From Gemmatimonadota bacterium (lineage in GTDB: Bacteria > Gemmatimonadota > Gemmatimonadetes > Gemmatimonadales > Gemmatimonadaceae): a DNA stretch of 64,000 bases. Position 1 is the first letter of the stretch. Each line of letters begins with the position of its first letter. The notes under the pieces were generated by a model. The model worked only from the letters and a program-made list of their open reading frames with translations. It was not told where the DNA came from and searched no databases. Positions 51,463 through 55,300 of the stretch are shown here, in pieces. Location of the stretch: contig JACPPC010000001.1 of assembly GCA_016191225.1 (NCBI GenBank), forward strand, positions 186,001 to 250,000, given 5' to 3'. The position numbers and the translations under genes were made by a program.

Positions 51463-51872
51463 CCATCCCCGAGCCGACGCCGTACGACCTCCTGGGCGGC
51501 GAGGCCGGCGTGCGCGCGCTCGTGGACCGGTTTTACGACCTGATGGATTCGTCGCCGGAGGCGGCGCACGTGCGTGCCCTCCACGCCGCCTCGCTCAAGC
51601 AGTCGCGCGAGAAGCTGTACCTGTTCCTCAGCGGCTGGGTGGGCGGGCCGCCGCTGTACGTGGAGCGCTTCGGCCACCCACGGCTGCGAGCGCGGCACCT
51701 CCCGTTCGCGATCGGCACGCGGGAGCGCGACGAGTGGCTCTGGTGCATGGACCGCGCGCTCACGGCGCAGGCGATGCCGGACGACCTGCGCGAGTCGCTG
51801 CGCGCGGCGCTGCACGGCCTCGCCGACCACATGCGGAATGCGGGCGACCCGGCGGCGTCGTCCGGACCGTGA
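51459..51872 (+). CDS. Group II truncated hemoglobin
   Basis: YDLLGGEAGVRALVDRFYDLMDSSPEA, LYLFLSGWVGGPPLYVERFGHPRLRARHLPFAIG, EWLWCM; ATGA overlap with upstream amidohydrolase. Confidence 0.9.
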   Translation: MTIPEPTPYDLLGGEAGVRALVDRFYDLMDSSPEAAHVRALHAASLKQSREKLYLFLSGWVGGPPLYVERFGHPRLRARHLPFAIGTRERDEWLWCMDRALTAQAMPDDLRESLRAALHGLADHMRNAGDPAASSGP

Positions 51873-51901: not shown

Positions 51902-52165
51902 CTACTTGAGGTAGGCGCGGACGATCTCGGCGACTTCGTCCGAGTCGGGATTCGGCCCCTTGGCGGACAGCCCGTGCTCGCGGATGTGCTCGGCGAGCAC
52001 TTCGGCCATCAGCGCGCTCATGGCACCACGCGTGGCGGCGATGAGCCGCAGCACGTCGGCGCATTCCTCGTCGGCGGCGAGGGCCCGCTCGACCGCTTGC
52101 GCCTGCCCGACGACGCGACGGATTCGGGCGAGCAGCTTGGTCTTGTCTCGAATGGCGTGGCCCAA
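51902..52165 (-). CDS. Metal-sensing DUF156 transcriptional repressor (RcnR-like)
   Basis: MGHAIRDKTKLLARIRRVVGQAQAVERALAADEECADVLRLIAATRGAMSALMAEVLAEHIREH; H3, C35, H60, H64 by direct counting. Confidence 0.92.
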   Translation of the reverse strand: MGHAIRDKTKLLARIRRVVGQAQAVERALAADEECADVLRLIAATRGAMSALMAEVLAEHIREHGLSAKGPNPDSDEVAEIVRAYLK

Positions 52166-52227: not shown

Positions 52228-52313
52228 GGTATACACTACCGGGTATGGCATATGCTGTACAGCGCAGCATCGAGCATACCCCCCTTGACGCAGGCCGCCG
52301 GTACCCGTATGGT
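52228..52313. promoter_or_regulatory. Candidate RcnR/CsoR-type operator region with promoter TTGACG-N17-TATGGT
   Basis: GGGTATG (52241-52247) inverted with CATACCC (52275-52281) preceding a C-tract; TTGACG 52285-52290 and TATGGT 52308-52313 toward the Nramp gene. Confidence 0.5.
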
Positions 52314-52522: not shown

Positions 52523-53866
52523 ATGTACTGGATCAGCAAGCTCATTCACCAGTTCTCGCGCCTGAAGCGGCGCTGGCTGGTCCTGTTCGCCGTGCTCGGG
52601 CCGGGCATCATCACGATGGTCGCGGACAACGATGCCGGCGGCATCTCGACGTACGCCCAGACCGGCGCGCGAACGGGCTTCAACATGCTGTGGGCGTTCC
52701 TGCTCCTCGTGCCGATGGCGTACTTCGTGCAGGAGATGACGGTCCGGCTGGGGGCCGTGACGAAGCGCGGGCACGCCGAGGCGATCTTCGACGGCTTCGG
52801 CCCCGTCTGGGGCTGGTTCTCGGTCTTCGACCTCGTGCTCATCAACTGGCTGACGCTGGTGACCGAGTACATCGGCATGACCCAGGCCCTGCGGCTGTTC
52901 AACATCCCGGAGTGGGTCACCTTCGGTGGCGTGACGGCACTGCTGATGGCCATCGTCATCACCGGCAAGTACTGGACGTTCGAGAAGATCACGCTCGTCT
53001 TCTGCCTGTTCAACATGGTGTACATCCCCGCCGCGTTCTGGGCGATGCACACGGGCAACGTGGCCGGCGGCTGGACGGCGGTGGGTCGCGGCTTCTACGC
53101 CCCGCACTTCACCCTCAACGATGCCCTGACGCCGGCCGCGCTGATGACCCTGGTGATGGCCAACATCGGGACCACGATCACGCCGTGGCAGATCTTCTTC
53201 CAGCAGTCGGCGGTGGTCGACAAGGGGATGGACATCAAGGACATCGCCTTCGGCAAGATCGACACCCTGTTCGGCGCCCTGCTCACCTGCATCGTCGCGG
53301 CCTTCATCATCATCGCCACCGCGGCGATGTTCCACCACAACCCGTCGGGGCCGATCGACATCGAGTCGGCGGCGCTGGCGGCGGCGCGGATGCCCGAGGT
53401 GCTCCCGGGCGAGCACCTCGGGGTCTACGCCAAGGGGCTGTTCGCCATCGGCCTGTTCGACGCCGGGCTGCTCGGCGCGCTCTGCATCTCGCTCTCGACC
53501 AGCTGGGCGCTGGGCGAGGTGTTCGGCTGGGCGCACTCGCTCAACCGGAGCGTGCGCGAGGCCCCCTGGTTCTATGTCGCCTACCTGCTGATGCTCCTCT
53601 CGGCGGGCGTCGTGTCGCTGGTGGCCGGCGCGCAACTGCAGGACGCGATCACGATCTTCGTGCAGGTCGTCGCGGTCACGCTGCTCCCCGCCGCCCTCGT
53701 CTTCCTGATCCTGCTGCTGAACGACAAGGCGCTGATGGGCGAGCACGTCAACACCAGGACGCAGAACGTGGCCAACTGGGCGATCACGATCCTCGTGATC
53801 GTCGTATCCTCCGCCTTCGGGATCTCGGTGCTCTTCCCTTCCTTCTTCGGCGCCGGCGCCAACTGA
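52523..53866 (+). CDS. Nramp-family metal ion transporter (non-canonical)
   Basis: GPGIITMVADNDAGGISTYAQTGARTGFNMLW and TM6 GTTITPWQIFFQQSA; about 11 TM helices; MPH and DPGN motifs not conserved. Confidence 0.88.
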   Translation: MYWISKLIHQFSRLKRRWLVLFAVLGPGIITMVADNDAGGISTYAQTGARTGFNMLWAFLLLVPMAYFVQEMTVRLGAVTKRGHAEAIFDGFGPVWGWFSVFDLVLINWLTLVTEYIGMTQALRLFNIPEWVTFGGVTALLMAIVITGKYWTFEKITLVFCLFNMVYIPAAFWAMHTGNVAGGWTAVGRGFYAPHFTLNDALTPAALMTLVMANIGTTITPWQIFFQQSAVVDKGMDIKDIAFGKIDTLFGALLTCIVAAFIIIATAAMFHHNPSGPIDIESAALAAARMPEVLPGEHLGVYAKGLFAIGLFDAGLLGALCISLSTSWALGEVFGWAHSLNRSVREAPWFYVAYLLMLLSAGVVSLVAGAQLQDAITIFVQVVAVTLLPAALVFLILLLNDKALMGEHVNTRTQNVANWAITILVIVVSSAFGISVLFPSFFGAGAN

Positions 53867-53870
53867 CCCC

Positions 53871-55133
53871 GTGACGAACCCGCCCCCGCCCGCCGCCGCG
53901 GCCCCGCCGCTCCCGGACTACCAGCTGCTCTTCTTCTCCGAGCTGCTGGAACACAAGGTCTGCCAGACGCGGGAGGAGTTCCGCATCGGCAAGCTGACCG
54001 ACCTCGTGGTGCGCCTCAGCGAGCCGTACCCGGAGGCCGTTGGCATCCTCATCAGCCACGGCTGGGGGAAGCCCACCGAGTTCATTCCGTGGGACCGCGT
54101 CGTCCGCATCGAGCGCGGCGCGATCTTCGTCCACCCGCCGGCGAGCGGCGAGCGGTACCCGCCGTTCGTCGACCAACCCGGCTGGATGCTGCTCAACGAG
54201 CACCTGATGGGGCGCACGATCCTCGACCTCGACGGGCGCCGCGTCGAGGTGGTCAACGACGTCCAGCTGCTGCAGAGTCGCGGGCGGATGCTGATCGCCC
54301 ACGTGGATGCCTCGTTCAACGGCTTCCTGCGCAAGTGGCACCTGGGCTGGATCGGCCTCCAGAAGGACCAGCTCATCTCGTGGCGCCACGTCCAGCCCCT
54401 CTCGATCGAGGACGCCACCGCCACCGACAAGGTCTCGCTCTCGGTCACCCGCCAGCAGATCCACGAGCTGCCCAGTGAAGACCTCGCCGATGCCCTCGAG
54501 GAATTGTCCGGGAAGGAACAGCAGGCGATGTTCTCGGCGCTGGCCACCGACAAGGCCGCCGAGACGCTGCTCGACGCCGAGCCGCGCGCGCAGCGGCAGA
54601 TCGTCGAGGACCTCGCGCCGGAGCGCGCCCGCGCGATCCTGTCGGAGATGACCGTCGCCCAGCTCGCCGACTTGCTCTCGGCGCTGCCGTGGGACGACCG
54701 AATCGACCTGCTGGCCCTCCTCCCGCGCGAGCTGGCGGAGCGGACGCGGTCCATCCTCGCCTCGGAGGAAACCCGGGCCGGCTCCCTGATCTCGCAGCGA
54801 TTCGTCGCGCTGGCGGAGGAGACGTCGGTCGGCGACGCCCTGGCGCACCTGCGCCGGTCGCCGCCCGACAAGGAGGCGATCAGCTACCTGTATGTCGTGC
54901 GCGGGGCCGAGCGCGTGCTGACCGGCGTGGTGGACCTGCGCGAGATGGTGCTTGCGCCGGAGTCGGCGACCCTGGCGGAGCTGATGGCGACACCGCCCGT
55001 GTCGGCCGACGAGCAGCTGCTCAAGGAGGATCTCGTCGACCTGTTCGCCAAGTACCAGTACCGGATGCTCCCGGTGGTCGATGCCGGCGACCGGCTCCTG
55101 GGCGTCGTCGGCTACAAGGACATCATGCGATGA
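53871..55133 (+). CDS. MgtE intracellular N-domain / CBS-domain protein with N-terminal PRC-barrel-like region, no TM domain
   Basis: LPSEDLADALEELSGKEQQAMFSAL (MgtE-N), CBS: VVRGAERVLTGVVDLREMVLA, YQYRMLPVVDAGDRLLGVVGYKDIM. Confidence 0.85.
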   Translation: MTNPPPPAAAAPPLPDYQLLFFSELLEHKVCQTREEFRIGKLTDLVVRLSEPYPEAVGILISHGWGKPTEFIPWDRVVRIERGAIFVHPPASGERYPPFVDQPGWMLLNEHLMGRTILDLDGRRVEVVNDVQLLQSRGRMLIAHVDASFNGFLRKWHLGWIGLQKDQLISWRHVQPLSIEDATATDKVSLSVTRQQIHELPSEDLADALEELSGKEQQAMFSALATDKAAETLLDAEPRAQRQIVEDLAPERARAILSEMTVAQLADLLSALPWDDRIDLLALLPRELAERTRSILASEETRAGSLISQRFVALAEETSVGDALAHLRRSPPDKEAISYLYVVRGAERVLTGVVDLREMVLAPESATLAELMATPPVSADEQLLKEDLVDLFAKYQYRMLPVVDAGDRLLGVVGYKDIMR

Positions 55134-55300
55134 GCACGCCTCCACGCATCGAAATCCGGAGCCACGATGCCGCGCGTTGAGATGTCCCGAGGGGTGCGGC
55201 TGGCGCTGCTGTTGCTGCGCATCTACCTCGTCGGGATGCTGGCGCTGATCCTGCTCAAGTTCCTTCGAAGTGTCGGATAGTTCGCGTCGGATGGGTCGCG

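Follow-up and report, generated by a model that had tools for sequence, protein, structure and literature searches.

The locus raises the question of which metal is imported by an Nramp-family transporter with a non-canonical metal site, and how many genes its system comprises. In the window, i.e. the whole stretch of 64,000 nucleotides of a Gemmatimonadota contig that was analysed, the transporter gene is directly followed by a gene resembling the cytosolic part of an MgtE channel, and the earlier note had read the two as a two-protein uptake system for Mg2+ or other divalent metals with a separate Mg-sensing gate. Our analysis suggests, with moderate confidence, that the operon encodes a probable three-component importer of Mg2+, and likely also of Mn2+, on the NRMT branch of the SLC11/Nramp family. 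Its features are as follows.

52285..52313, + strand: sigma-70-like promoter pattern TTGACG-17-TATGGT pointing toward the operon (a consensus match alone; the sole one in the region, 1 found against 0.1 expected)
52523..53866, + strand: NRMT-type Nramp transporter, 447 aa (Pfam Nramp, 1.1e-68; best PDB match EleNRMT, 7qia, E=6.6e-60)
52622..52642, + strand: TM1 metal-site motif ADNDAGG (DxxG), an NRMT signature (PMC8806188)
53168..53191, + strand: TM6 metal-site motif GTTITPWQ (TxxT, His replaced by Trp), an NRMT signature (PMC8806188)
53871..55133, + strand: cytosolic regulator-like protein, 420 aa, with two beta (PRC-type) units, an MgtE_N helical domain and a CBS pair (Pfam; MgtE cytosolic domain, E=9e-28; AlphaFold model)
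53937..54143, + strand: PRC-barrel domain of the regulator (Pfam PF05239, residues 23-91, 7.9e-8)
54471..54761, + strand: MgtE_N domain of the regulator (Pfam PF03448, residues 201-297, 4.5e-16)
54777..55127, + strand: CBS pair of the regulator (Pfam PF00571, two stretches, 5.3e-15; model residues 303-419)
55167..55280, + strand: single-TM microprotein, 37 aa (MPRVEMSRGVRLALLLLRIYLVGMLALILLKFLRSVG), third gene of the operon (profile match 1.2e-15; conserved beside the NRMT gene; under purifying selection)

The transporter almost certainly belongs to the NRMT branch and lies outside the canonical Slc11 clades. It matches the Pfam Nramp model with 232 bits (cut-off 29.8) and does not reach the cut-offs of any of the MntH models. 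EleNRMT is its closest solved structure, the remaining Nramps matching at about 1e-10 or weaker, and is also the closest by fold for one modelled relative. The two motifs read as the earlier note had given them, A34-D-N-D-A-G-G40 in TM1 and G216-T-T-I-T-P-W-Q223 in TM6, and contain the DxxG-TxxA/T signature assigned to NRMTs in PMC8806188 as D37-A-G-G40 and T217-T-I-T220; together with the EleNRMT match, this agrees with the note's assignment to the Nramp-related Mg2+ transporters. The canonical MntH encoded in the same genome (L001) has GYMDPGNW and GATVMPHN at these places. Compared with it, the Asn of TM1 is replaced, and in TM6 the Met has become Thr220, the His Trp222 and a second His Gln227, so the metal-selecting Met and His have indeed given way to Thr and Trp. 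Neither the DPGN of TM1 nor the A/CxxM and His of TM6 found in canonical Nramp/MntH proteins is present in the window transporter, and both proton-pathway His residues of TM6 are likewise replaced in EleNRMT, by Trp and Asn. The metal-site motifs are invariant across 7/7 orthologues at 65-82% identity, which argues that they are not due to chance. The phylogeny that had been proposed as a check was run by maximum likelihood with midpoint rooting and contains some long branches; in it all NRMTs that bear the microprotein, including those fused to it, form one clade (support 96/95) with the window transporter inside and the EleNRMT types outside. Two more Nramp outgroup classes occur in the order of the window, with the motifs SDDDPAGI/GTTLAPWG (L012-L016) and ADDDPSGI/GTTISPYL (L017-L032), and have neither a regulator nor a microprotein nearby. 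In one Methanosarcina MAG (L099:1346-2623) the NRMT frame is interrupted by stop codons while the microprotein and regulator frames are intact.

The second gene starts with GTG at 53871, after a gap of 4 nt (53867-53870), and ends at 55133. Its Pfam domains are a PRC barrel, MgtE_N and CBS, and no MgtE channel domain (PF01769) is found by Pfam in the protein, so both the spacing and the architecture are those described before. The AlphaFold model, computed as a single chain, consists of two beta units, helices in the MgtE_N part and the CBS pair; its pLDDT of 86.7 and pTM of 0.45 mean that the domains are well defined and their relative placement is not. The best Foldseek match of this model is 2yvy (3.3e-18). 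Five acids of the MgtE sensor, taken from the list of sites in PMC5882242, were checked. E59, D95 and D247 have their counterparts in E231, D267 and D417 of the regulator, positions that hold an acid in 36, 34 and 39 of 40 relatives, respectively, while the equivalents of D91 and D226 are lost here and in most relatives; the equivalent of D250 falls at the extreme end. Hence the protein resembles the cytosolic domain of the MgtE channel (2yvy, 2zy9) in its MgtE_N and CBS fold and in three acids, but it is detached from any channel, has PRC units added at its N-terminus, lacks two of the acids and terminates where the plug helix would start. Mg2+ sensing by the regulator is plausible on this comparison of residues.

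The transporter and the regulator alone would be a new member of a published system. Most NrmT genes adjoin a homologue of the MgtE cytosolic domain, as reported by Shin et al. (2014, PMC4072509), who suggested regulation by feedback and also saw M-boxes on operons of this kind; the linkage of the two genes is thus borne out, and the pair as such is not novel. The window operon shares with that system, including ACP2976/ACP2977 of A. capsulatum, the same two adjacent families and the idea of cytosolic feedback, and differs in that one common extra gene, not two, is described in that paper. In A. capsulatum the regulator lies upstream, and such an arrangement comes without the microprotein in the Acidobacteriaceae that we examined. 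EleNRMT and the C. acetobutylicum transporters CA_C0685 and CA_C3329 are like it in the DxxG-TxxA/T signature, the loss of the proton-pathway His, the fold and the adjoining MgtE-like cytosolic gene. However, in the EleNRMT type the regulator is upstream in 26/30 loci, with a short downstream match alone in the other 4, and there is no microprotein, whereas the window type has a downstream regulator together with the microprotein.

This third conserved gene is new here, having been missed by the earlier note and by the family libraries. It came to light because the gap between the NRMT and regulator genes, ~180-250 nt wide in many relatives, was looked into and holds a conserved small ORF. In the window the ORF has 37 codons and begins 34 nt after the regulator stop. 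No model of Pfam or NCBIfam matches five members of the family at E up to 10. We regard it as a real gene with near certainty. The ratio pN/pS is 0.06-0.42 in 18/18 close pairs, indicating purifying selection, and clear ribosome-binding-like sequences precede the ATG in low-GC members; these observations, with the phylogenetic profile given below, rule out the mere translation of GC-rich DNA.

The microprotein follows the window-type NRMT genes closely. With few exceptions its profile matches a single ORF at each NRMT locus, which shares the strand of the NRMT or the regulator gene and adjoins it. We use loose class labels coined in this analysis: tier 1a for the order NRMT-regulator-microprotein, which includes the window; tier 1b for NRMT-microprotein-regulator, which includes Methanothrix, Methanosarcina and Thermoplasmata contigs; and tier 2 for NRMT-microprotein without a nearby regulator. 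A relative of the microprotein lies beside 102/103 window-type NRMT genes, from many bacterial phyla and archaea, and beside 0/67 other Nramp-family genes. By class the counts are 26/26 (tier 1a), 43/43 (tier 1b) and 20/21 (tier 2, the exception being L122), leaving out contigs that end too early and with two near-identical plasmid copies among the 43. The profile was iterated on the first locus set, and its order-wide alignment includes the window row and L011 from the order, so two further searches are the stronger tests. Among held-out Acidobacteriaceae the microprotein lies beside 13/13 window-type NRMTs (L164-L176) and 0/16 NRMTs of the other type (L177-L192), 9/16 of which have a regulator detected upstream within a short flank. 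Across the whole genomes of 121 members of the order it is found in exactly 9, those with a window-type NRMT, in one copy each and adjoining the NRMT gene. It is found in 0/30 EleNRMT-type loci, where two stray matches (E 0.83 and 0.94) are not of the microprotein kind, and in 0/21 Nramp outgroup loci (L012-L032). Some loci come from related genomes, and hence the counts are not fully independent; they do span many phyla. The class without a regulator (L105-L121, L125, L126, L164-L176) occurs in Acidithiobacillus, Acidiphilium, Alicyclobacillus, Acidobacteriaceae and various MAGs. One locus (L052:3694-3798) has a second, diverged microprotein-like ORF (E=2e-7) ~1 kb past the first and without an NRMT of its own, by duplication or as an assembly effect.

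Our data indicate that the microprotein very probably associates with the transporter. A segment homologous to it forms the C-terminus of seven NRMTs encoded on plasmids, those of Mycolicibacterium, Burkholderia, Leifsonia, Streptomyces, Paraburkholderia, Ralstonia and Alicyclobacillus. These segments are weak with a simple profile (0.71 for L127); they were recognised by motif and then compared profile to profile, with a probability of 93-95% and E-values of 5e-8 to 2e-7. The controls, windows slid along the same transporter and its TM11-12 region, reach 3.6% at most. Since natural fusions of it to the transporter exist in some bacteria, the microprotein is probably a third subunit. The mean charge of its flanks is +3.0 on the N-terminal and +0.4 on the C-terminal side, the former being higher in 83/87 members, which predicts a cytosolic N-terminus; an extra helix before the fused segment, seen by hydropathy in most of the seven fused NRMTs, fits this orientation. 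We considered the microprotein as an ordinary TM12 and rejected this, since the fused forms mostly have both TM12 and the microprotein helix and the predicted orientation is N-in. In another locus (L094) the NRMT and the microprotein lie in one frame with a stop codon between them. The AlphaFold model of this read-through chain, from an alignment with 19 naturally paired rows, has a pLDDT of 89.8 and a pTM of 0.88, with a disordered linker (pLDDT 47-65) and microprotein helices at 74-87, and is consistent with docking of the microprotein on the NRMT. A literature search for a small NRMT partner found none. An analogy, not a homology, is offered by SGLT2-MAP17, a LeuT-fold transporter with a single-TM auxiliary protein (PMC10803289), which is eukaryotic, carries Na+ and glucose and is unrelated in sequence.

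We propose the following mechanism. The NRMT would be the ion carrier, and its DxxG/TxxT site, together with the missing proton-pathway His, may allow uptake of partly hydrated Mg2+ uncoupled from H+, as in EleNRMT, whose transport is not coupled to H+ (PMC8806188). The PRC-MgtE_N-CBS protein would be a soluble partner that probably reports the Mg2+ (and perhaps nucleotide) status to the NRMT and reduces its activity under Mg2+-replete conditions; we favour such feedback slightly. The microprotein would be a membrane protein whose basic N-terminus faces the cytosol; its helix, with a conserved L-R-x-Y segment, may pack against the NRMT, and it could be a small subunit on which NRMTs of this class depend for folding, stability or regulation. 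In this light the two-protein system of the earlier note holds as regards the linkage of its two genes and is probably incomplete in the branch of the window, because the third gene is linked to the NRMT as tightly as the regulator, and in more of the clade.

Mg2+ is probably a main substrate, judging from the genomic context. An M-box riboswitch (133-142 bits, cut-off 44) lies upstream of the operon on the same strand in three relatives (L058, L061 and L093), of which the first two have NRMTs 62% identical to that of the window. No M-box is found in nine other loci of the same search or in 24 further tier-1b loci, and the window has neither an M-box nor any other Rfam element, so a riboswitch was rejected for this copy. 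Four loci have a gene of an Mg2+ P-type ATPase (TIGR01524, mgtA) close by, just downstream of the operon in L047, L094 and L095 and upstream of it in L066, and mgtC is nearby in L059, L083, L126, L127, L196 and other plasmid copies. The genome of the window also encodes CorA and MgtE besides its canonical MntH, and no MgtA above the cut-off; with CorA and MgtE present, the NRMT system is not its only Mg2+ importer. Taken together, the M-boxes, mgtA and mgtC in relatives and the MntH/CorA/MgtE set of the genome make Mg2+ the best guess and Mn2+ a likely second substrate, and the preference for Mg2+ over Mn2+ or Fe2+ expressed in the earlier note is backed by this context in relatives.

The operon could instead import Mn2+ or another transition metal; the MgtE-like partner would then respond to a different ion, which is what Shin et al. 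put forward for A. capsulatum. The NrmT pair of that species rescued better for Mn2+ than for Mg2+, with full rescue of the Mn2+ mutant and Mg2+ rescue just at low millimolar concentrations (PMC4072509), Mn2+ is carried by EleNRMT too (PMC8806188), plasmid copies are located in heavy-metal islands, and a CsoR/RcnR-type repressor is encoded divergently from the operon in the window. We nevertheless consider this unlikely, as M-boxes precede the operon in three relatives, mgtA and mgtC recur as neighbours, the genome encodes a separate, canonical MntH for Mn2+, and the arrangement in A. capsulatum, with its regulator upstream, fits the other class. The regulator might be a nucleotide-linked CBS protein or a metal buffer without influence on NRMT gating. 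Co-expression of the A. capsulatum partner brought no gain in Mg2+ rescue in the sole published test (PMC4072509), and the loss of the D91 and D226 equivalents and of a following plug helix points the same way. Against this stand the linkage of the regulator to the NRMT in both gene orders and across classes, and the retained MgtE_N-CBS core with its three acids, D417 being acidic in 39/40 sequences; we regard a role without gating as somewhat unlikely and keep to a possible gating partner.

The microprotein, for its part, might be an independent regulator (e.g. of MgtA, protein turnover or a sensor kinase) that travels in the operon without being an NRMT subunit. MgtS, MgtR and MntS are very short enterobacterial proteins tied to Mg2+ or Mn2+ transport and homeostasis, and the Mg2+ stress response includes small single-TM proteins that act on other targets, which counts for this possibility, as does the varying position of the microprotein, after the regulator in tier 1a and between the two genes in tier 1b. 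Compared by description and not by sequence, the microprotein shares the very short length and the tie to Mg2+/Mn2+ transport with these proteins, but its family ranges over many phyla, with archaea among its carriers, and goes with a single class of transporter. It persists without the regulator in tier 2, always adjoining the NRMT, is fused to the NRMT in seven plasmid genes and never occurs without a window-type NRMT among the 121 genomes. An independent role is thus quite improbable, and we retain the microprotein as a likely NRMT subunit.

Nramp transporters are regarded as stand-alone carriers, and EleNRMT has reportedly been studied by itself. With the third gene, the operon represents an NRMT branch with a probable dedicated single-helix subunit. 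The wider proposition is that a large Mg2+-transporting Nramp branch of bacteria and archaea is multi-subunit, with an obligate single-helix subunit of 37-70 aa and a detached, sometimes dispensable MgtE-type sensor as gating subunit; we see the case for it as evenly balanced. If it is true, the branch of the window would be, to our knowledge, the first class of Nramps to have a small membrane subunit dedicated to it, and assays of the transporter only may misjudge activity or selectivity. The full gene set makes the role of the MgtE-like partner testable, and the microprotein adds a protein family overlooked by standard annotation.

Several observations concern the neighbourhood of the operon and its plasmid copies. 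A C6 tract lies at 52279-52284, just upstream of the promoter-like pattern. The divergent gene at 51902-52165 (- strand) encodes a CsoR-family repressor (FrmR and RcnR models, 7e-22 and 1e-17) with His3, Cys35, His60 and His64 (read by eye), which we take to be an RcnR-like Ni/Co pattern. We rejected it as a conserved part of the operon because none of the other orthologous loci in the order has it; repressors of a similar kind are encoded near the NRMT in L040, L098, L103, L126 and L128, though not in the orthologues closest to the window. Convergent with it, an ORF at ~51480-51872 (+ strand) resembles, by eye, a group II truncated haemoglobin. The NRMT-microprotein-regulator operon is also found on conjugative plasmids of Citrobacter freundii (pPSV, IncHI1B; L123) and Serratia marcescens (IncHI2A; L124). 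The plasmid copies were not taken as a sign of mere cargo, most members being on MAG contigs of many phyla. Both plasmid operons adjoin genes of a heavy-metal P-type ATPase, an ArsR-type regulator and a CDF exporter, and on pPSV pco and rcnA genes also lie within 12 kb of the NRMT operon.
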